This document shows, piece after piece, positions 13,956-64,000 of a DNA stretch of 64,000 bases; positions within the stretch are counted from its first letter, which is position 1, and the number at the start of each line of letters is the position of its first letter. The notes beneath the pieces are model-generated. The model ran no database searches. It saw only the letters and a program-made list of their open reading frames with translations, and was not told where the DNA came from. The position numbers were made by a program, and so were the translations under genes. This DNA comes from Ignisphaera sp. (lineage in GTDB: Archaea > Thermoproteota > Thermoprotei_A > Sulfolobales > Ignisphaeraceae), in the NCBI GenBank assembly GCA_038735125.1, contig JAVYNU010000003.1, forward strand, positions 62,001 through 126,000, written 5' to 3'.

Positions 13956-14807
13956 ATGCTTTTTGCAGATGGGCATCTACATACAAATCCTATTAAAGGC
14001 TTAGGTGCTAAAACCATTGCAAAGAAATTCAAAGATGTTAATGGTTGGTTCATGGTTTTGGTTGGTCTATCACCAAAAAATTTAGGTTTTGAAATGAATT
14101 TTGATGGGTATGTGAAAAGCATTGAGGTATTGCTTAAGGAATGTGAAGTTGTTAGGAAGGAGGGATTAAAGGTTGCTTGTCTATCAGGCATACATCCTGC
14201 TGATATAGATGATTTAGTTGTTAGAAATCCAAGAAATGGTGAAAAAATCTTGGACTTGGCACTAAATATACTGAATTACATTGGTAAACTAATCAAAAGT
14301 GGTTTAATAGATGGTATTGGAGAAATTGGGAGACCACATTATAAAACAATTCCAGAATCTTTTATAGCAAATTCAATTATTTTGAAACATGCATTGGATC
14401 TAGCCAGAGATCTAAATTGTTTTGTACATCTTCATCTTGAGCAGGGAGGATACCTAACAGTTTTAGATATTGAAAATACTGTGAAGGAGCACAAGATTAA
14501 CAAGTATAAGATAGTATTTCACCATTCCGACATTCTAACATCAGAAGAGGCTTTAAAAAAAGGCTTTATTTTTACAATTCCTGGAAAATACCAAATACTG
14601 AAAGAAGCATTTAGAAGATTTCCGCCTGATTATATAGTTGAAAGTGATTTCATCGATGATCCAAAAAGACCTGGCGTATCTTCATACCCATGGCAAATCG
14701 TTGAAAACCAGCTGAAGTTATTAAATGAAAATGTTATTGATGAGAATTATCTGTGGAAGCTAAATGTTGATAATATTGCTAAGTTTTATAACGTCTCACC
14801 ACCTTAG
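13956..14807 (+). CDS. TatD-like metal-dependent hydrolase
   Basis: The protein is about 283 residues, beginning MLFADGHLHTNP; the H-x-H is the first metal site of the amidohydrolase fold. Further elements are SGIHPADIDD, DGIGEIGRPHY, FVHLHLEQGG, VFHHSDI and ESDFIDDPKRPG. These fit the TatD DNase/hydrolase group in a divergent archaeal form. The substrate is unknown. GGTGAT lies 9-10 bases before the chosen ATG; a TTG two codons earlier and an ATG at 13917 are alternatives. The neighbouring minus-strand transporter ends 14 bases downstream. Confidence 0.75.
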   Translation: MLFADGHLHTNPIKGLGAKTIAKKFKDVNGWFMVLVGLSPKNLGFEMNFDGYVKSIEVLLKECEVVRKEGLKVACLSGIHPADIDDLVVRNPRNGEKILDLALNILNYIGKLIKSGLIDGIGEIGRPHYKTIPESFIANSIILKHALDLARDLNCFVHLHLEQGGYLTVLDIENTVKEHKINKYKIVFHHSDILTSEEALKKGFIFTIPGKYQILKEAFRRFPPDYIVESDFIDDPKRPGVSSYPWQIVENQLKLLNENVIDENYLWKLNVDNIAKFYNVSPP

Positions 14808-14820
14808 CCTTAGAATAATA

Positions 14821-15987
14821 TTATAATATAAGAGGAATTGCTGTTGCTAAACCAATTATCATTGCTATGAGCAAGAATGTGTGTTGTCCTAAACCTATTG
14901 TAAGGCCTCCAATCAATGAGCCCATAATTGATCCAAGTTCTCTAAATATAAAGTATGTTGATGTTCCATAGCCTGCTTGTGTAGATATATAAATGTTGTA
15001 AAGGGTTATATCTAGTATCATGAAAAGCATTGATGATACTACTATGTATAACAACAGATGTAACACATTTGATATGAGACCAAAGCCTATTGTAAGAGCC
15101 ACTAAGCGCAAAAGAGATACTGTAAATGCGAATACACTACTCGAGAAATCTGCATTCCTTAGTAAGAGGTTTATCAAAGCAGATATTATGGCTGCTATCC
15201 CATATACCTTCCACATATCAGTTACCACAATCTTGGATTTTACAACCAGTGGTACTATGGTGAATATATAATCTCCTACTGCCACGCCCCCTGCTATAGA
15301 AATCAATACTTTTATAGGCGAGATGCTCTCTATACTGTCCCAAAACCTAGCAAATATTTCCACAGCTGTCTTTGGTCTATCTATATATAGCAAAGATGAT
15401 GAGGCTTTTATATAATATCCTATTCTATCCAGTATCTTATTTAATTTGTAGAATCTTCTTTCAAATGCTATGATTAGTGAAGGCATTAAAATAGCTGTTA
15501 TTGCAATACACAATAAAACTGCATAAAATATGTTAATAATAGATGCCACACTAAGTATAGATGCGATGACCAGAGTTGAGCCCCTAGCAATATTGCTTAC
15601 CACCCTGTTATATAATGTCATTCTATTCCATGAATCACTATCAAAACTTTCCAATGTTGTGACGCTTATAGCTAGATTTAAAGAGGCTATTGCAATAGCA
15701 TGCAATATATAGAGGAAGAAGCCTATAACGAAGCTGATGTTATTGAAAAAGTATGTTATGAGAGATACACAAAGCAATGTTATTGTGCAAAGCATTTTAT
15801 TTGATCCGTGATCGGCGAGAATACCTAGAACTTTGTTAGCAATTATGTATGCAATGCTCCACATAGTACTTAGAATACCTAGGTAGATCCCATTAACATT
15901 TAGAGAATATGCTATGTAAATAAATAAAAGGGGATCCAATGCAGACAGCATTCCATATGCAATTATTGATATGATGTGCCATGCCAA
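14821..15987 (-). CDS. MFS-type multispan transporter
   Basis: The 388-residue hydrophobic protein has about 11-12 predicted spans, with a cytoplasmic basic stretch mid-way (ERRFYKLNKILDRIG) dividing two halves as in the major facilitator superfamily. The GILADHGSNKML loop between spans 2 and 3 is the degenerate MFS motif. Substrate not identifiable. It lies downstream of a second MFS-like gene on the same strand (93-base gap). Confidence 0.6.
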   Translation of the reverse strand: MAWHIISIIAYGMLSALDPLLFIYIAYSLNVNGIYLGILSTMWSIAYIIANKVLGILADHGSNKMLCTITLLCVSLITYFFNNISFVIGFFLYILHAIAIASLNLAISVTTLESFDSDSWNRMTLYNRVVSNIARGSTLVIASILSVASIINIFYAVLLCIAITAILMPSLIIAFERRFYKLNKILDRIGYYIKASSSLLYIDRPKTAVEIFARFWDSIESISPIKVLISIAGGVAVGDYIFTIVPLVVKSKIVVTDMWKVYGIAAIISALINLLLRNADFSSSVFAFTVSLLRLVALTIGFGLISNVLHLLLYIVVSSMLFMILDITLYNIYISTQAGYGTSTYFIFRELGSIMGSLIGGLTIGLGQHTFLLIAMIIGLATAIPLIL

Positions 15988-54779: not shown

Positions 54780-55976
54780 CTATCGCCTTATTGACACAAG
54801 TTCTGCTACATTTTTAAATACGAGATACGAGGCATATGGGTACTCCGTAACTATGATATCCCCTTTTCTTGCTTTAAATTCTCTATCTATTATTCTTAAT
54901 TGAGGTAAATCCACTAATACCCGTAACTGAAGTAGCTCACTACCACTACTAATTGAAACATTATACGAATCCAGCTCAAACTCAGATACATTTCTAATCA
55001 AAAAAGCTTTCCAGCCTGTCTTTCCATTTACACTATTTGGAGCTCTAACAAGATGTGAAATATCTATGGTAACTTTAGAATCTATTGGAATATATAATTC
55101 ATTAAGTATTTCCTCAATCCACTTTGATATAATTTCTGATACTTGTACTAGTTTAGAATAATCAATTTTTTCGCTATAGCCCATTAAAAAACTTTTTATG
55201 TTCTCGTCAGAAACCCTTTTCAATAGGTGTAATGCTATTCTTCTTCTTAAACCACCATCAGTAGCTCTTGGTAATATATATCCTAGCTCTTTTCGCTCTC
55301 TAGCACTACCCATATACATATTTACAACATATTTTCTATCAAAATCATTTAGCGTTATATATGAAACTATTTCTCTTCTCGCTTCTGAGTCCATTCTATC
55401 GAATGGCTGAGACAACTCAACAATTAGGTGGAATCCTCTATTTCCAGAAAAACTCGCTTTATAAGTTAAAAATCCAAAATCATTCTCAATAATGTCTATA
55501 AGCTTAAGCAGATAGCTATGTGCTTTTTCAACGCAAGTCCTGTCCACATGCTCAAATTTTTTAAGTTCTAGATGGCAATATGGACATTCTTTTTCATCAC
55601 TTTTTGCTATATATCCACACCTAGGGCAGAATCTAAAATCTATAACATACTTACTGCAATCCGGAATATCGTTTGAATCTATATCGAATACTAAGTCACT
55701 ACCAATCCATCCTTTTTCAGACATTTCATTATTACCTGGGTAGAGGTATTTTGCTGATGAATAATATAGATGACGGGGAACATTTACTAATATGTATTCT
55801 CTAAGTTGCGTTGACGAGTCAAATGATAAATGACGAACATAGTAATCTGCATCAAAAGGCTGTAAAGCAATCTCCCTGAATGGAAGGTCTTGGGGGAGTT
55901 CTAGAGAAGCCATCCTATAGTATTCTCTAATTTTTTCCTTAAAAAAATCCAGTACCACACCTCTTCTTTGACTCAA
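54780..55976 (-). CDS. priS: DNA primase small (catalytic) subunit PriS
   Basis: The 398-residue protein has the catalytic aspartates D98 and D100 in SDLVFDIDSND, a zinc knuckle of C107, C117, C120, C131 and C134 in the following stretch (four of these coordinating), GNRGFHLIVEL, and the third catalytic region near residue 300 (DIDSKVTIDISHLVR). It makes RNA/DNA primers with PriL. The neighbours are PCNA (30 bases upstream) and the GINS candidate. Confidence 0.95.
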   Translation of the reverse strand: MSQRRGVVLDFFKEKIREYYRMASLELPQDLPFREIALQPFDADYYVRHLSFDSSTQLREYILVNVPRHLYYSSAKYLYPGNNEMSEKGWIGSDLVFDIDSNDIPDCSKYVIDFRFCPRCGYIAKSDEKECPYCHLELKKFEHVDRTCVEKAHSYLLKLIDIIENDFGFLTYKASFSGNRGFHLIVELSQPFDRMDSEARREIVSYITLNDFDRKYVVNMYMGSARERKELGYILPRATDGGLRRRIALHLLKRVSDENIKSFLMGYSEKIDYSKLVQVSEIISKWIEEILNELYIPIDSKVTIDISHLVRAPNSVNGKTGWKAFLIRNVSEFELDSYNVSISSGSELLQLRVLVDLPQLRIIDREFKARKGDIIVTEYPYASYLVFKNVAELVSIRR

Positions 55977-56006: not shown

Positions 56007-56819
56007 TTACTCCATTCTTGGAGCAATGAAAACCTTTAATATGGCTCCTCCAATCATGTCTAAATCTATCTCGCAAGGTATTTCAGGTGCTAATTTAATT
56101 GTAGTAGTTTCTGCAAGCTTCGTTAACTGTGTCAATGTTGAGATATATTCCATGGAATATGAATTAACAAATTCTTCAACATCTTCAGCTATTTGATAAT
56201 CTATCAAAGTACCCGTAGACACATTAAATAGGAATTCTACCTCACCAAGCTCTGTAGAAGCCATTAATGCTAGACCATCTTTTAATGCTTTGATCTTCGC
56301 TACCTCACCCATATCCTCCAGTATTGATAAAGCCACTGAGAGTGCTGGGCCAAGGATTTTAGCAACAACTTTGAATTCTAGAGATAGTTCAGGTATTTCC
56401 TCATATGATGACGATATAAGTGGTAATATAAAGGTTCTTTGTGTGCCACCTTTAGAAATGAGAGAAAGGCTTAGTCTACTACCATCGCTATATAGCGCAA
56501 GCTTATCTGATTTAGATGCTCTTCTAAGTATTTTCGAAACACCCTCTAGATTTAGAAACAATACCTCATCTTTTTCAACGACATATTCTTCAAAGGCGGT
56601 GGGAGGAATGCTGAAATCCACAAGCATTACCCGACTTGGATCCATAGCCCTTATTCTAACACCCTCATTAGGACTGACCTTCATACCTACAACCTCTAAA
56701 TAGTCTGCAAGTGTTCTTAAAACATACCTCCAAATCCTAGCATCTCCAAACACAAATCTAATGGTTGTAGCGCTACTCAATTTTTCCACCAATAATAAAG
56801 CTGAATACTTTTTAGACAA
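56007..56819 (-). CDS. pcn: PCNA sliding clamp, paralog A
   Basis: 270 residues with two clamp folds: VGMKVSPNEGVRIRAMDPSRVMLVDFSIP in the first half, and a second domain ending LAPEIPCEIDLDMIGGAILKVFIAP. Crenarchaeal PCNAs assemble as heterotrimers; this and the copy at 57210 are likely two of three. It tethers polymerase, FEN1 and ligase to DNA. It lies 35 bases downstream of the AbrB-like gene. Confidence 0.94.
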   Translation of the reverse strand: MSKKYSALLLVEKLSSATTIRFVFGDARIWRYVLRTLADYLEVVGMKVSPNEGVRIRAMDPSRVMLVDFSIPPTAFEEYVVEKDEVLFLNLEGVSKILRRASKSDKLALYSDGSRLSLSLISKGGTQRTFILPLISSSYEEIPELSLEFKVVAKILGPALSVALSILEDMGEVAKIKALKDGLALMASTELGEVEFLFNVSTGTLIDYQIAEDVEEFVNSYSMEYISTLTQLTKLAETTTIKLAPEIPCEIDLDMIGGAILKVFIAPRME

Positions 56820-56853: not shown

Positions 56854-57213
56854 TTATAGGCATTTTAAACCCTTTGTCTTTCCTAATTCAAGAGCTTTTT
56901 TATTGAGCACAATTTTGCATTTATACTCTCCATGTTCTTCATCTATACGTCTACAAGTAATAGCTATCAAATCATTTCCTATATCTGATATGATGTCTAA
57001 CATGTTCTTTAAAGGGTTTACAGCTATACATATAACTGGGTTGTTGGATCCAGGACCTAGTATTTCAATTTTTTGCGTATCCTCATCAAATAATAGAATT
57101 AGCTTATCCCCTTCTTCAATATCTAGCAGTAGTCTTAAAGTGGATGGTATTGTTATCCTACCCTTTGAATCAACCTTTACAACATCAGCGTGCATCAAGT
57201 CACCGTTGTTCAT
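56854..57213 (-). CDS. AbrB/SpoVT-type DNA-binding protein between two PCNA genes
   Basis: The 119-residue protein has a swapped-hairpin AbrB domain (residues ~8-50): VVKVDSKGRITIPSTLRLLLDIEEGDKLILLFD. The rest (about 65 residues) is an unrecognised, compact alpha/beta region with a cysteine in ICIAV and another in TCRRID. It overlaps the upstream PCNA stop by four bases (ATGA) and sits 35 bases before the downstream PCNA. It may be an autoregulator of the replication operon, by inference from position alone. Confidence 0.7.
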   Translation of the reverse strand: MNNGDLMHADVVKVDSKGRITIPSTLRLLLDIEEGDKLILLFDEDTQKIEILGPGSNNPVICIAVNPLKNMLDIISDIGNDLIAITCRRIDEEHGEYKCKIVLNKKALELGKTKGLKCL

Positions 57214-57971
57214 GCTCTGGGCGCTATCCAGACCTCTACCCTGCCTCCACCAGTTATCTCAAAAGCTATCTTCAAAGGCTTGTCTGCCCCAAATGCAATA
57301 CTGCATTCCTCTGCAAGAGTAAGAAGCTTTGCAACAGCCTTTAAATGTTCAACACTATACCTAGCAATACTGCTACCCACTGAAGATTCTAGGTATGTTA
57401 ATGGTTGAAACTGTTTTAATATAGTTTCATATGACCCTAGATCACCATGAGCTGTAACTTTTATCCCATTTAGCTCTGACGAATATATAAACGAGGCCTC
57501 CTCACCCAAAATACTGATATCCTTTATAACGGATATTAGCTCATCTGCTGGAAGGTTTGCTGACACTTCAAGTTCTACATTCAATGATCCTATTCTCTCG
57601 AAATTAATCTCAGATAGAGGAACTGCATATTCTCTTTCTAAATTACTTCTAACGTTAAAAACCTTAACCTTTAGTTCTCTACCACCGGCCATATACTCAA
57701 ACGATACCTTATCCCTTTTTGTAGCCCTTCTTAGCGATTTGACAAACTCATCTCTATCAGCAATAATTTTTATCTCTTCACTAACGCTATACTCTTCAAA
57801 TGCTGATGACGGAATTGAAAATATGATCATGGATACCTTATCGGGTGAAAGCGCCTCAATCGAGAACTGGTCTAATGATACCACAATCGGTATTTGATCA
57901 ACAATGCCTTTCAAAGCTTGCGCCACATTCTTTATTACCGCTCCAACAGGATATGTAATTCTTGCACTCAT
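57210..57971 (-). CDS. pcn: PCNA sliding clamp, paralog B
   Basis: 253 residues: IVVSLDQFSIEALSPDKVSMIIFSIPSSAFEEYSV-type interdomain region, and a C-terminal ADKPLKIAFEITGGGRVEVWIAP. It diverges clearly from the copy at 56007. GAGGT precedes the ATG by six bases. It heads the replication cluster, divergent from the gene at 58048. Confidence 0.94.
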   Translation of the reverse strand: MSARITYPVGAVIKNVAQALKGIVDQIPIVVSLDQFSIEALSPDKVSMIIFSIPSSAFEEYSVSEEIKIIADRDEFVKSLRRATKRDKVSFEYMAGGRELKVKVFNVRSNLEREYAVPLSEINFERIGSLNVELEVSANLPADELISVIKDISILGEEASFIYSSELNGIKVTAHGDLGSYETILKQFQPLTYLESSVGSSIARYSVEHLKAVAKLLTLAEECSIAFGADKPLKIAFEITGGGRVEVWIAPRA

Positions 57972-58579: not shown

Positions 58580-58858
58580 CTATTCTTTTCTTTTTCTTCT
58601 ACCCCGCTTCTTAGTGGTCTCGACTTGCATTTGAGGTTGCTGGATAATTGCATCTATAATCTTTTTTGCATCCTCAAATGTGATCTCTCCCTTAACTAGC
58701 CTATCCCATGTTTCTGAACGAAGAATGAACATCTCTAGTTCTTGAGGTGAAAAAGCTACGTATTCTACCTCTTCACTTTCGGCATATATTTCGCTAGACT
58801 CTTCTTCGAGAGCTTCTCTTCCTTCCTGAGTTTCTGACGAAATTATTTCTTCTTCCAT
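58580..58858 (-). CDS. rpo13: RNA polymerase subunit Rpo13
   Basis: 92 residues: an acidic N-terminal tail (about 35 residues rich in E and S), a short helix-turn-helix core FILRSETWDRLVKGEITFEDAKKII, and a basic tail TKKRGRRKRKE. This charge layout and core match Rpo13, the crenarchaeal-specific subunit located near downstream DNA in the polymerase cleft. GAGGGTG lies just before the ATG. Its neighbours on the same strand are the Ced-like genes, 138 bases upstream. Confidence 0.8.
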   Translation of the reverse strand: MEEEIISSETQEGREALEEESSEIYAESEEVEYVAFSPQELEMFILRSETWDRLVKGEITFEDAKKIIDAIIQQPQMQVETTKKRGRRKRKE

Positions 58859-58996: not shown

Positions 58997-59188
58997 CTAA
59001 GCTGTGCTACACTGCCTCAATATGATGAATAATGTAACTGAGGCAAGAATGACTATAACTATGAAAACATTTAGAATATCTGATGCTAACAATTTGGCTT
59101 CAATTGTTAATGCAAATAGGGTAAGCATAGCTAAGATGTTGAATATTAGTATTCTTCTTGATAAACTACTTTCGACACAGATTTTCAT
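58997..59188 (-). CDS. two-span small membrane protein, CedA2-like candidate
   Basis: 63 residues with two hydrophobic spans (about residues 13-33 and 38-58) and a short basic start. It overlaps the end of the polytopic gene upstream by four bases (ATGA). In the Sulfolobus Ced DNA-import system CedA has two small two-span partners, CedA1 and CedA2; this is the position and size expected of CedA2. The assignment is by context and topology. Confidence 0.5.
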   Translation of the reverse strand: MKICVESSLSRRILIFNILAMLTLFALTIEAKLLASDILNVFIVIVILASVTLFIILRQCSTA

Positions 59189-60564
59189 AGTACTACCCTC
59201 AGCCTAGCTGTTCCACCTATTGCCTTGGCCAGCCCTATTGAAATCGAAATAAGCAATGACATATACAAAGCTGCACCAATAATATCCACATATATGACAC
59301 GAATCAGCTCATCAAAGATTCCAGGAAGATTATTATAATTCATGATCCTAGATTGAGCAATATAAATATAGCTTTCACTTGGTTCAAGCTTTTCATACGC
59401 ACTCTGTTCTAAGTTTATCACTACCTTATGTAATCCCTCAGGAATATTTATCACATATGTCTTTCCAAATAAATCAAACCAATTCCACTTATACTTGATA
59501 TATCTATCTACATCCTCAATGGCCTCTGAATCTATATTCAATGACTTTATGTTATAGGCATCAACTATAGAAATATACAAATCGAATTTTTGGTGAGAAA
59601 CAAAATAAACCTCTACATAGTTTTCAGTAAAAATAGTTACATTTACATGATCTGGAAATGGTGCAACATGTAAAGCTACACCCTTTCTATAATCTATTAA
59701 TCCTAGAACCCTTAAATTCAGTCTACATAAAAATGGTACAGAACCTTGACTTGAACTTCTGCATAGGCTAAATATTGAAACATTAGTTATATTTGTGTAG
59801 AACATGTGACCACATACATCAAAATATATAGTTACATTCCCTCTATAATCAGTTAATATTGCGTAAACACCAGAATATGTTGGTAGTGGTGCGATGTATT
59901 CACCATTATATTCTAAGCCTATGAAGCCTTGTGAAATAACATGGTCATCCATGTTAACTATAGAGCCATATACAATAAAATCACCTGGATTAGAAGATGC
60001 GGGAAATATTAATGTCTTAACAAACTGTAGGTATAGTGGTAGAGCAGAATTAAATACTAATGCAAATGCTATGAGAAAAGCTCCTGCTCCTCGAGCTACT
60101 CTAAATGGTATTGCCATTAGAGCTAAGCCCAATGACAATAGAACCCAAAAAGAATATTTAACAAAAACTGATAGGCTATACATAACTAATAACGTATAGA
60201 GCGAGGCCGTAATGCTATTGATGACCATTGAAATAAGCCTGGCCATCCCTGATAAAAACATTGTCTTAGCCAATAAATCTCTGAAGAGACCCAGCGTAAG
60301 CAAAACATATACTCTACCAACAATAGTTGCCTTTATGTACGATAAGAAGAAATCCCAATCTCCACCCAATACACTTTGGATAATACTAGCCAGCGCTGTT
60401 ATTGAGGACAAACTAAACAGCAGCACCATTACATAAAGGGCGTCTGCAATTAGCCTTGGGGCCCATCGTTTCAAACCAGTTAGGGGTATAGGAAGGGCAT
60501 AAATAAGCACACCAATATAAAATGTCAGAATTGATAAATAGTAAGCTACTAGCAACAGGTACAA
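59185..60564 (-). CDS. CedA-like polytopic membrane protein of DNA import
   Basis: 459 residues: about six to seven spans in the first 205 residues, then a ~210-residue extracytoplasmic beta-rich region with Asn glycosylation sites, and a last span at about 425-450. The early segment PIPLTGLKRWAPRLIADALY resembles the APIPMGRVRKIGQGLIEDAVW of the neighbouring 90-residue protein, as expected for CedA and CedA1, relatives of bacterial conjugation VirB6/VirB2-type components. Ced takes up DNA between crenarchaeal cells. TTG start, with GGGGT five bases upstream. Confidence 0.6.
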   Translation of the reverse strand: MYLLLVAYYLSILTFYIGVLIYALPIPLTGLKRWAPRLIADALYVMVLLFSLSSITALASIIQSVLGGDWDFFLSYIKATIVGRVYVLLTLGLFRDLLAKTMFLSGMARLISMVINSITASLYTLLVMYSLSVFVKYSFWVLLSLGLALMAIPFRVARGAGAFLIAFALVFNSALPLYLQFVKTLIFPASSNPGDFIVYGSIVNMDDHVISQGFIGLEYNGEYIAPLPTYSGVYAILTDYRGNVTIYFDVCGHMFYTNITNVSIFSLCRSSSQGSVPFLCRLNLRVLGLIDYRKGVALHVAPFPDHVNVTIFTENYVEVYFVSHQKFDLYISIVDAYNIKSLNIDSEAIEDVDRYIKYKWNWFDLFGKTYVINIPEGLHKVVINLEQSAYEKLEPSESYIYIAQSRIMNYNNLPGIFDELIRVIYVDIIGAALYMSLLISISIGLAKAIGGTARLRVVL

Positions 60565-60616
60565 CGCATACCCCTACGTTTCTAGCTGAATACATTAAAA
60601 TGGCTCCAAAAATAAT

Positions 60617-60889
60617 TCATGGAAGCTGAGGTGATGGTGGAGGAGGAAGAGCGTTGCCTATATAAGACGCTATATACGTTATAAGCCAGAATATTGTTGT
60701 TCCTACTGCTACCCAAAACGCGCCCCATACAGCATCCTCAATAAGCCCCTGTCCAATTTTTCTGACTCTTCCCATGGGTATCGGAGCTCCTTTTATTGCC
60801 CATCCTATTAACCATGTAAGGAAAAATAAAAGCCAAGCTACCACAACGGTTTTGCTAATCAAATCTTTTATCAATGTTATAATGTCCAT
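60617..60889 (-). CDS. CedA1-like pilin/membrane protein
   Basis: 90 residues with two spans (about 14-34 and 54-78) joined by a polar, basic loop APIPMGRVRKIGQ, and a proline-rich tail PPPPSPQLP. Recent structural work describes CedA1 as the pilin of the Aeropyrum/Sulfolobus DNA-import pili with this two-helix plan. It is 52 bases upstream of the CedA-like gene. The assignment is by pattern, not by alignment. Confidence 0.62.
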   Translation of the reverse strand: MDIITLIKDLISKTVVVAWLLFFLTWLIGWAIKGAPIPMGRVRKIGQGLIEDAVWGAFWVAVGTTIFWLITYIASYIGNALPPPPSPQLP

Positions 60890-60946
60890 TTCTTATCCCG
60901 CTATATTTAGAAACCTTATAAAATGTTTCTTGAGAACTAATATGAG

Positions 60947-63841
60947 TCAATCCCAATACTTCCTTGTTCTTAAAAACCTCTCCTCATATTCCAAGATATT
61001 CTGTATAAGCGTATTCATGTCAAAAGCTTTTGATAACACTTTTTTCGAATTTTCAATCCCAATCCCAATACCTTGTAATGCTATTAAGAAGGCTAGGCCA
61101 TATTCCATTAACATGTTGGCTATCTCAGCAGATTTTTCAAGTACCTTTCGTTCTTCAATATTCAGTTTATCTAATTCAGCAACATTTCTAGCCTTAGAGA
61201 TCGCTTTTCTCAACACATTTACTTCATCATCATTCTCCACAACTGTTATAGCTTTAGAACCGCAAAAAGGACATGAGATGGGGCATTTAAAAGGGTTATC
61301 AGTTTTACATATGTTATCTAGATGTGCATTAATGTTAATTTCAAATAATTTGTTGCATATCATACAAAACGCTTTGACACTTTTGTTTAGAAGCCTTCGC
61401 TTTGCAAGTTCTAATATTAACTCTTTTGATAATGCAGAGCTTCTAATTATGTACCTTAATGAGCCAAGTTGCGTGATTTCCTGTAAAAAAGGAGATGGCT
61501 TTTTGACAACAATTATCCTAATTTTCAAGCCTCTTTTCATTGAGTCTATAAACTTTCCAACCTCTTCAATATCGATTTTCTCTACAAGTAATTCTCTAAC
61601 AGTTTCATTAACAAGAATTGGCGTTGCCATTAGACTACTAACTATTCTTTTTATTTCCTTGATATCACTGTTCTTTGATATTATCCCCATCTTTCTTGCA
61701 ACATTGATAAGATTTCTCTTGAATATAGAGGTTTTTTTCAGCTCTTCAACTATAAAATCCCTTATTAAACCCTTTTCATGAATATCAAGAAGTGTGCTCA
61801 AAACTCTTTTAACGTCATTGACATTAATAGGCGAATCTATGAGCACTACAGTACCAAGTTGATGTGATTTATATGTATTCCCTATTCTCAGATATTCTCT
61901 TAGGATTTTTGATATAAGTATCGAGAAAGCTTCTGAAGCTTTCGAGCCTAAGCATGTATAGATGGCTAGAAGAGTTTTGTTTTCATTAGGTATTCTCAGA
62001 AGTTCTATTGTAAGAACCCTATCATTTGGATAAACTTTGCAGATAGCTTCTCTATTTGCTAATAGGAATTCTTTAAGATCTTTGTCTACATTATATAAGC
62101 TTAAAAGATGTTCTATACAGCTAGGTTCATTACATGTACAGAAACGTCTAAGAAAAGAACAAACTTCTCTCGAGACCTTTCTATCAACTGGAATATTCTC
62201 TCCAACCCACCTAGGTAGTACAATCTCTGCAAGTTCTGTATATGGAGCTAGCCAAACAGTTTTCTCATCAAACTCTACACTGATAACTTTCCAAGGCCTG
62301 CCAGCCAACACTATAATGTCGCCCTCATTGCATGTTGCTATAAAATCTTCGTCTAATGATGCCACAACTTTGTGATCTATTATTGACTTTGCTAAATACC
62401 GTGTAGTATCTGGTATCATGTTGGTTGTAACATAGTATATGTAGCCCCTCTTCGTACTCTGGCAACGCATTGAATTACCATTGTCAGTGCATTTCACAAG
62501 ACCAATTTCATTTAGAAACGATATAATTTCCTCTATATTATCCAGTGTTATATCCTCAAAGAGTGGTGATTTCTTAACAAGTCTGAAAAAATCGTCTATA
62601 TCAATTGAATCTCTTTCTATAGCCATACCCACAAACTGGTGGGCCAAAACATCCAAGCTGTTGAAATGCATTTCTATACGTTCTAGATCCCCCCTTTGAA
62701 GCCTCTTCGCAATAATAAGAGATTCTACAATTTCTGAAATTATTGGTGGATTAAGTATTATCCCTTTAGATATGCCCTCTTCTCTATGCCCTGCACGACC
62801 AACACGTTGCATAAGCTTAGTAACTTGCCTGGGCGACAGATATTGTATCACATAGTCTACTGTTCCAATGTCTATTCCTAGTTCGAGACTTGATGTTGCA
62901 ACAACAAGTTTTAGGGAACCACTCTTAAAATTCTTCTCTACATATTCTCTTTCAATCCTAGATAACGATCCATGATGCAACCCAACAACATTTTCACTGA
63001 GTTTCTTATTCATTCTAAGCATAAATCCTAGTTCTTCTGCAGCTGTCCTAGTATTTGTGAAAACCAATACTTGTCTATAGAGAGCTGAGTCGGCAACCTC
63101 AGCAATTTTATCAACTACTTTTTCTGTACTGAAGATCCCACCTTGGTAGCTCTTATCTGTTAGCCCAACTGTTACATCATAAATCTTTTGTGTTTTCGAT
63201 AAAGCGACATCGAAAGATCTATGTGAAAAGATGATGTTGCCGATGTAATTTACATCAAACTCATTTATTGAGGCTGACAAGGCTATTCTTCTAATATGTC
63301 TACTTAGCATCTCATCTAATCTCTCAAGAGATAGGAAAAGTTCTACACCTCTTTCATCATTTATTATCTCTTGTAGTTCATCAACAATAACTGCGTAAAG
63401 ATTTGCTAAATGTTTCTTCAAATCATTTTTTATAAGCAATATTTGAAAGCTTTCTGGTGTGGTGAGAAGAATATTTGGAGGATTCTTCATAATTCTTTTT
63501 CTAATTCCATATGATGTATCGCCATGCCACACATCTACGCTACATCCAAATACTGCACAAATATTTTCTAATCTCGATTTAATATCCCTATTCAAGGCTC
63601 TTAACGGTGTAATATAGATCATTGCAATAGATGAATTTCCATTCAAAAAACCTTTTCTAGATAGTTTAACTAGGAGAGGCACTATAACGGCTTCTGTTTT
63701 TCCTGATCCCGTAGGGGCAACCACTATTAAATCTCTGTCGTGTTCCATAATTTTGGAAAAAGTTTTTCTTTGAATATCTGTTGGATATGCAAAGCCTACT
63801 TGCGAAAACCAATAAAGCACATCCTCCACATTGTTTTTCAT
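60947..63841 (-). CDS. Lhr-type superfamily 2 helicase with C-terminal zinc motif
   Basis: 964 residues. Helicase motifs: VVAPTGSGKTEAV (I), TPLRALNRD (Ia), LLTTPES, VDELQEIINDERG (II, DELQ in place of DEVH), ALSAS (III), VATSSLELGIDIGTVDYVIQ (V) and QRVGRAGHR (VI). This is the Lhr family, which unwinds DNA and RNA:DNA hybrids in repair. The C-terminal half is mostly helical and carries cysteine pairs C826/C829 and C857/C860, fitting a zinc-binding site. It lies 57 bases upstream of the CedA1-like gene on the same strand. Confidence 0.85.
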   Translation of the reverse strand: MKNNVEDVLYWFSQVGFAYPTDIQRKTFSKIMEHDRDLIVVAPTGSGKTEAVIVPLLVKLSRKGFLNGNSSIAMIYITPLRALNRDIKSRLENICAVFGCSVDVWHGDTSYGIRKRIMKNPPNILLTTPESFQILLIKNDLKKHLANLYAVIVDELQEIINDERGVELFLSLERLDEMLSRHIRRIALSASINEFDVNYIGNIIFSHRSFDVALSKTQKIYDVTVGLTDKSYQGGIFSTEKVVDKIAEVADSALYRQVLVFTNTRTAAEELGFMLRMNKKLSENVVGLHHGSLSRIEREYVEKNFKSGSLKLVVATSSLELGIDIGTVDYVIQYLSPRQVTKLMQRVGRAGHREEGISKGIILNPPIISEIVESLIIAKRLQRGDLERIEMHFNSLDVLAHQFVGMAIERDSIDIDDFFRLVKKSPLFEDITLDNIEEIISFLNEIGLVKCTDNGNSMRCQSTKRGYIYYVTTNMIPDTTRYLAKSIIDHKVVASLDEDFIATCNEGDIIVLAGRPWKVISVEFDEKTVWLAPYTELAEIVLPRWVGENIPVDRKVSREVCSFLRRFCTCNEPSCIEHLLSLYNVDKDLKEFLLANREAICKVYPNDRVLTIELLRIPNENKTLLAIYTCLGSKASEAFSILISKILREYLRIGNTYKSHQLGTVVLIDSPINVNDVKRVLSTLLDIHEKGLIRDFIVEELKKTSIFKRNLINVARKMGIISKNSDIKEIKRIVSSLMATPILVNETVRELLVEKIDIEEVGKFIDSMKRGLKIRIIVVKKPSPFLQEITQLGSLRYIIRSSALSKELILELAKRRLLNKSVKAFCMICNKLFEININAHLDNICKTDNPFKCPISCPFCGSKAITVVENDDEVNVLRKAISKARNVAELDKLNIEERKVLEKSAEIANMLMEYGLAFLIALQGIGIGIENSKKVLSKAFDMNTLIQNILEYEERFLRTRKYWD

Positions 63842-63935: not shown

Positions 63936-64000
63936 ATGAGAGAAGGGAATAATTCTAAACTCACATATTTTCATGTATACACAACAATTCTAGGTGTTGT
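63936..64000 (+). CDS. start of an unidentified gene (truncated by window edge)
   Basis: An open frame begins at ATG 63936 (MREGNNSKLTYFHVYTTILGVV) and runs off the edge after 21 full codons. The hydrophobic segment YTTILGVV could begin a membrane span. A TATA-like AAGCTTTAATAG lies about 25 bases upstream. The product cannot be named from this length; the next kilobases would show whether it is linked to the Ced-like genes, for example the CedB ATPase. Confidence 0.5.
   Translation, partial: MREGNNSKLTYFHVYTTILGV

Follow-up and report, generated by a model that had tools for sequence, protein, structure and literature searches.

Three genes read from the minus strand, cedA1, cedA and a short gene for a two-span membrane protein, adjoin the gene of an Lhr-type helicase in the stretch of DNA of the hot-spring archaeon Ignisphaera sp. 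analysed here (contig JAVYNU010000003.1 of assembly GCA_038735125.1), which has 64,000 nt and is referred to below as the window, coordinates being window positions unless a contig is named (Table 1). The genes are tightly packed, with 52 nt between cedA1 and cedA, an overlap of 4 nt between the end of cedA and the start of the 63-aa gene, and just 57 nt between cedA1 and the end of the helicase gene, which lies upstream. Given that a TATA-like element (TTTTATAAG) precedes cedA1, and that similar elements occur at about the same distance before cedA1 in many Ignisphaeraceae loci, the sequence suggests that cedA1 has a putative near-leaderless promoter of its own, despite the proximity of the helicase gene.

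Table 1. Features of the Ced locus in the window, and the separate cedB genes
Feature	Position	Strand	Description
Lhr-type superfamily-2 helicase	60947..63841	(-)	964 aa; DEAD, Helicase_C, DEAD_assoc, WH_Lhr
TATA-like element TTTTATAAG	60915..60923	(-)	some 30 nt upstream of the cedA1 start codon (ATG); read directly from the sequence
cedA1	60617..60889	(-)	VirB2-like pilin, 90 aa, ATG start
cedA	59185..60564	(-)	VirB6-like channel/platform protein with a probably extracytoplasmic insert, 459 aa, TTG start
CedA region, probably extracytoplasmic	59290..60006	(-)	residues 187-425; delimited by aligning 77 long forms with 30 short ones
Predicted beta-domain 1	59701..59988	(-)	residues 193-288; transthyretin/CnaB-like
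Predicted beta-domain 2	59398..59700	(-)	residues 289-389; beta-sandwich with conserved Trp362
Two-span gene, positional CedA2 counterpart	58997..59188	(-)	63 aa, ATG start
Split CedB	L120:13759-14385 and 14429-15487 (G000:C3 155759-157487)		N-terminal-domain gene and ATPase gene

The three open reading frames had been proposed at the same positions in the original prediction, together with the helicase beside them and a layout in which a polytopic protein is flanked by two two-span proteins, all of which agrees with the present results (hydropathy gives two spans in each small protein and six strong spans in CedA). Compared with the closest relative (G131, L045; one species pair), the dN/dS ratios are 0.04 for CedA1, 0.11 for CedA and 0.26 for the 63-aa protein, so all three ORFs evolve as proteins. 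Just past the operon, positions 58580-58858 hold a 92-aa ORF that matches the RNA polymerase subunit Rpo13 marginally below the cut-off (24.4 bits, cut-off 25), and two ORFs that resemble PCNA sliding-clamp subunits by eye (56007-56819 and 57210-57971) have a primase-like ORF beside them (54780-55976).

Identity of the genes and the third gene of the operon

CedA1 is the one component that exceeds its NCBIfam equivalog cut-off, matching NF041797 with 105.8 bits (E 8.7e-31; curated cut-off 100), and its residues 2-79 align with the CedA1 pilus of Aeropyrum pernix (8dfu; PMC9905601) with E 1.9e-23. The protein encoded directly beside it is a CedA homologue that matches NF041796 with E 2.7e-37, in two stretches split by an insert, and the homology is clear, though the score of 129 bits is far below the equivalog cut-off of 330. 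As CedB and CedD also score below their cut-offs, the names CedA, CedB and CedD rest on homology, synteny and fold. The adjacency of cedA1 and cedA is kept throughout the loci examined.

CedA also weakly matches the CedA1 model, and according to the passages of PMC9905601 on these components the N-terminus of CedA is homologous to CedA1. The PIP pattern that had been seen in both the small and the large protein is real; it reflects this published likeness and shows up here in the cross-hits between the models. Pfam gave nothing usable for CedA, its insert, the 63-aa protein or the 208-aa protein described below; matches to Sensor_TM1 and PufX were below the cut-off and were set aside as ordinary hits of transmembrane segments. 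The original prediction had set two tests beforehand, profile matches to Ced components and a CedB in the genome, and both were found. Given the profile matches of CedA1 and CedA, and CedB and CedD elsewhere in the genome, the Ced-type DNA-exchange locus that had been proposed is almost certainly a Ced operon.

The expected set of CedA1, CedA and CedA2 holds for its first two members, by profile, and for the third only by position and two-span architecture, given that the 63-aa protein has no CedA2-family match in its sequence and that NF041798 (CedA2) matches nothing anywhere in the genome. A two-span gene nevertheless follows cedA in 44 of the 73 loci with a long CedA, versus 1.3% of random positions, and in all 30 Sulfolobaceae loci (family f9), where it occupies the CedA2 position and encodes 47-62 aa. 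By family, it is found in 11/12 loci of f1 (f1/g1 standing for Ignisphaera), 11/14 of Desulfurococcaceae (f4), 8/9 of the Zestosphaera-type genomes (f7), 11/11 of Pyrodictiaceae (f8), 2/2 of f13 and the single loci of f11 and f14. No two-span gene was found after cedA in the loci of Acidilobaceae (f3, which includes the Aeropyrum-type genomes; 0/15), the AG1 group (f2; 0/4), f5 (0/2) or f6 (0/3), and the first of these counts agrees with A. pernix, reported in the relevant passages of PMC11868833 to lack CedA2.

Three of the positional counterparts, which belong to f4 and f7, reach E values of 1e-4 to 4e-4 with the CedA2 profile of Sulfolobaceae, a level that none of 100 column-shuffled profiles equalled. 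A profile search over the whole set was rejected as a proof of CedA2 homology, since its AUC of 0.926 over hydrophobic decoys was exceeded by that of the reversed profile (0.944), which points to composition only, and homology is therefore not claimed for the window protein. It may be, then, that the 63-aa ORF is unrelated to CedA2 and is an independent small membrane protein that came to lie there by chance, as the genome without any CedA2-family match and a non-Sulfolobaceae set no closer to CedA2 than to its reversal would have it; this is rather doubtful, however, in view of the frequency of such genes after cedA in long-form loci and of the three f4/f7 matches. According to the passages of PMC9905601, conservation of CedA2 ends with Sulfolobales, so that CedA2 is not strictly defining; this statement should be qualified, given that a positional counterpart is common.

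Split CedB, CedD and the adjoining Lhr helicase

The genome contains five matches to the HerA superfamily, among them HerA itself (L035, adjoining NurA), CedD (L037, E 2.2e-64 over residues 198-525, below cut-off) and a protein with the CedB ATPase domain (L039, E 1.3e-39). A further HerA-family protein (L038:976-2643) is not a good fit to CedB, CedD or HerA. The search for CedB elsewhere in the genome and to the right of position 64000, as had been recommended, thus located it as two adjacent genes that lie some 30 kb beyond the right end of the window. The 208-aa product of the first gene matches the N-terminal domain of intact CedB with an hhalign probability of 99.2% (E 3e-19; reversed control 1.3%).

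In most families CedB is encoded by one ORF of roughly 450-640 aa, and the two-gene form is found in 16 genomes of Ignisphaeraceae and 4 of the AG1 group, with N-terminal proteins of about 190-210 aa (one shorter call) and ATPases of about 280-400 aa. A frameshift or assembly error was discarded as the origin of the split, as the same two ORFs recur in all of these genomes. In one Ignisphaeraceae species (G136), whose sister species have the split form, a 628-aa ORF (L236:2874-4760) matches the CedB ATPase profile and is either an unsplit CedB or a HerA-type protein.

The split cedB of the genome studied is preceded by a 760-aa ORF (L120:11495-13777) that overlaps its start, and 15 of the 16 loci of Ignisphaeraceae have a gene of about 725-830 aa whose end overlaps, or almost overlaps, the CedB N-terminal gene that follows. 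The 760-aa ORF, which has no Pfam match and no matching solved structure in the PDB, is possibly a new Ced-linked component. In eight other families a cedB-like gene directly follows cedA or the two-span gene, as seen in 35 of 35 loci with enough flanking sequence (f3, f4, f5, f8, f10, f11, f13 and f14).

The upstream neighbour of cedA1 is an Lhr-type helicase in 13 of 13 loci of f1, as well as in nine of Desulfurococcaceae, eight of Pyrodictiaceae and one of f5. A second Lhr in the genome, 30% identical to the one adjoining the Ced genes, provides a yardstick: the Pyrodictiaceae neighbours score 464-484 bits against the window Lhr, compared with 281 for this paralogue, whereas the Desulfurococcaceae neighbours score no higher than the paralogue and merely group with those of Pyrodictiaceae in a quick unrooted tree. 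An Lhr subfamily linked specifically to Ced is therefore likely in f1 and Pyrodictiaceae and possible in Desulfurococcaceae. Such an Lhr may be functionally linked to Ced and take part in processing the transferred DNA. Among the open-access papers searched, two alone deal with the Ced components at length (PMC9905601 and PMC11868833), and their passages mention neither Lhr, Ignisphaera nor a split CedB, and the two-span gene after cedA in most families and the Lhr before cedA1 in several are likewise absent from them.

The insert and membrane part of CedA

Of the 229 genomes of the class, 179 yielded a CedA, and its alignment has too few conserved stretches to serve as a query, for which CedA1 was used instead. 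The original prediction regarded the protein as unusually large, which the distribution contradicts: its 459 aa are the norm of the class, where the long form measures 444-534 aa (n=77 genes, 13 families), and it is the Sulfolobaceae that are short (252-329 aa by longest-start reading, n=30 genes), together with two species of Ignisphaeraceae. CedA exceeds the equivalog cut-off in f9 alone and falls below it in every other family; f9 is read as Sulfolobaceae because S. acidocaldarius is the sole control genome above this cut-off. Given that every family except f9 has the long form, including f12-f14 from outside the order of Ignisphaera, the long CedA looks ancestral and the Sulfolobales form reduced. 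In the two Ignisphaeraceae species the insert is cleanly absent (G134: L048:4635-5480 and L129, 281 aa; G135: L202:4155-5135 and L130, 326 aa by longest start), and a third species of their genus (G136) has kept it, so that, on sequence comparison, this absence is a second, recent loss that is independent of Sulfolobaceae.

The insert is located between the last two membrane helices, where Sulfolobaceae CedA has about 30 residues in place of residues 187-425. An extracytoplasmic beta region of about 210 residues had been foreseen here, and AlphaFold2 (70 homologues, mean pLDDT 90.5) predicts it with high confidence at residues 190-390 or so, mostly above 90 within the insert, as two beta-sandwiches (residues 196-257 with 279-293, and 296-387). 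The evidence for its location is indirect: because N-glycosylation sequons (270 in the insert vs 19 in the rest, composition leading one to expect 135 and 43) and cysteines (197 vs 26) are in excess, the insert probably lies outside the cell. The K/R-rich PIP and PFR loops of CedA would fit an inside location by the positive-inside rule. The insert does not occur a second time elsewhere in this genome, and the passages of PMC9905601 and PMC11868833 on CedA describe the protein merely as six or seven transmembrane segments.

Beta-domain 1 resembles CnaB, usher C-terminal and carboxypeptidase TTL domains (VIA-align Z about 5-6.7), its top matches being carboxypeptidase M (6.7), CnaB2 (6.3) and the PapC usher (6.2), and 5 of 42 homologues match CarboxypepD_reg (best E 1.7e-6), the CedA of the window itself not being one of them. 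Beta-domain 2 has weak matches to generic beta-sandwich folds only, with a Trp at the position of Trp362 in 94% of the long forms. The structural matches of the insert reach Z 7.5, within the range in which unrelated beta-sandwiches score too.

Within Ignisphaera the identity of the insert averages 39%, close to that of the middle transmembrane segment (40%), and both are below the remaining core. The dN/dS ratios are 0.10 for the insert vs 0.11 for the core in a close pair of genomes; in a pair further apart, whose synonymous sites approach saturation, they are 0.26 vs 0.15. In the close pair, as far as sequence comparison goes, purifying selection acts on the insert as it does on the core, which, together with its identity, points to a structural part under constraint and not to a receptor that changes fast; a hypervariable receptor finds no support for the same reasons. 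The original prediction had seen in the region a possible receptor for DNA or partner cells, a role that the beta-rich fold and the very probable outside location would allow but that this constraint does not favour.

The main rival of the collar proposed below is a recognition module, in which the outside domains attach to S-layer glycans or DNA and select mating partners, and in lineages without Ups pili would fill the role that these pili have in Sulfolobaceae, which lost the domains. The short CedA does coincide with the Sulfolobaceae, where Ups pili have been reported (these pili being absent outside Sulfolobales according to the passages of PMC11868833); domain 1 is similar to domains that occur widely among pilins and adhesins (CnaB, usher, FbaB) and weakly matches the thread filament protein of Sulfolobus (E 0.013); and the insert has many sequons. 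On the other hand, Sulfolobaceae represent one evolutionary event, a common beta-sandwich fold is uninformative on ligands, and the conservation described above shows no sign of rapid diversification, all of which makes the recognition module an unlikely explanation.

As for the membrane part, the fold search with full-length CedA was swamped by the beta domains, and VirB6 surfaced only when a naturally short CedA (L048; pLDDT 89) was modelled. The VirB6 protein TrwI of R388 (7o3v, 8rt9, 8rtd; 8% sequence identity) then ranked first both by Foldseek (weak, E 0.3-1) and by VIA-align (Z 8.2-9.2, best 154 residues at 4.2 A, in a range where helical bundles up to Z of about 13 may be chance), and the N-terminus of the model matched the CedA1 pilin (Z 7.7). 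The fold scores are modest, yet it is the homologues one would expect that rank first. Legionella DotA, from the Dot/Icm system (9ngy), is, like CedA, a polytopic membrane channel with a large extracytoplasmic part, and its match is at background level (Z 6.5, 232 residues, 7.1 A). The VirB6 of R388 is a membrane helical protein and is not known to have the two beta-sandwiches that CedA carries between its last two membrane helices. The passages of PMC9905601 on these families report that CedA1, CedA and CedB are homologous to VirB2, VirB6 and VirB4, and that TedA, a relative, shows HHpred homology to VirB6.

A probable chromosomal Ced machine and its meaning

The closest known system is the Ced of Sulfolobales (CedA, CedA1, CedA2, CedB and CedD), with which Ignisphaera shares the gene order of CedA1, CedA and a two-span protein, a CedA1 above the cut-off and homologues of CedA, CedB and CedD, and from which it differs in the additional outside region of about 200 residues in CedA, the two-gene CedB, the two-span protein without a CedA2 sequence match, and scores below the cut-off for all components except CedA1. 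The Aeropyrum-type relative (L104) has a long CedA too (521 aa), and Acidilobaceae, unlike Ignisphaera, have no two-span gene after cedA and have the cedB-like gene adjacent. The Ted system of Thermoproteales (TedA, TedB and TedC) belongs to the same class of domesticated type IV secretion systems and has no recognisable sequence similarity to Ced, according to the passages of PMC9905601 that deal with it.

The reading preferred here, which is held with considerable confidence, is that of a chromosomal Ced machine, a domesticated type IV secretion or conjugation system, in which a collar at the base of the pilus is the favoured role for the insert of CedA. CedA1 would polymerise into a lipid-bound pilus of the conjugative type, CedA, as a VirB6-like protein, would form the membrane pore and the base for pilus growth, the motor would consist of the split CedB (N-terminal-domain and ATPase-domain proteins) plus CedD, and the 63-aa two-span protein would be an accessory subunit of the CedA2 type. 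The outside region of CedA, with its two probably glycosylated beta-sandwiches, would surround the base of the pilus as an extracellular collar that steadies pore, pilus and S-layer and that was lost in Sulfolobaceae. The collar role itself is put forward tentatively, and the two Ignisphaeraceae species that manage without the insert argue against its being essential everywhere. DNA import by the Ced of Ignisphaera is inferred by homology to the system of Sulfolobales, where the function was tested genetically (PMC11868833), the pilus structure being from A. pernix (PMC9905601); the passages of these papers on Ced contain no DNA-transfer experiment in Ignisphaera.

It is very improbable that the operon is instead a T4SS-like exporter or the conjugation system of a mobile element and not a host DNA importer. 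The homologies to VirB2, VirB6 and VirB4 (PMC9905601) would suit such a system, and in Sa. islandicus CedA1 and CedE are involved in export (PMC11868833), but the neighbours of the operon are housekeeping genes, including the PCNA-like, primase-like and Rpo13-like ORFs (assigned partly by eye), and the presence of a single copy per genome in almost every family of the class is what one sees with a chromosomal system. A more elaborate scenario, in which an ancestral docking or recognition collar of two beta-sandwiches was lost in Sulfolobaceae as Ups took over cell-cell recognition, CedB in Ignisphaeraceae works as two proteins and an Lhr linked to cedA1 processes the transferred strand, is regarded as improbable in its entirety.

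The operon is genuine and ordinary in kind, with variant features that are masked in the model organisms. Most of the knowledge on Ced comes from Sulfolobales, where CedA turns out to be reduced, and models of pilus anchoring or partner choice must account for the external part of the commoner form. The split CedB suggests that the motor and the N-terminal domain are able to function as two chains, a point of relevance to the published proposal of a joint replacement of VirB4 by CedB and CedD, and the linkage of Lhr offers a candidate for the DNA-processing step of Ced. For structural work, the insert-less CedA of the two Ignisphaeraceae species provides natural deletion controls, and the naturally split CedB a ready-made one.
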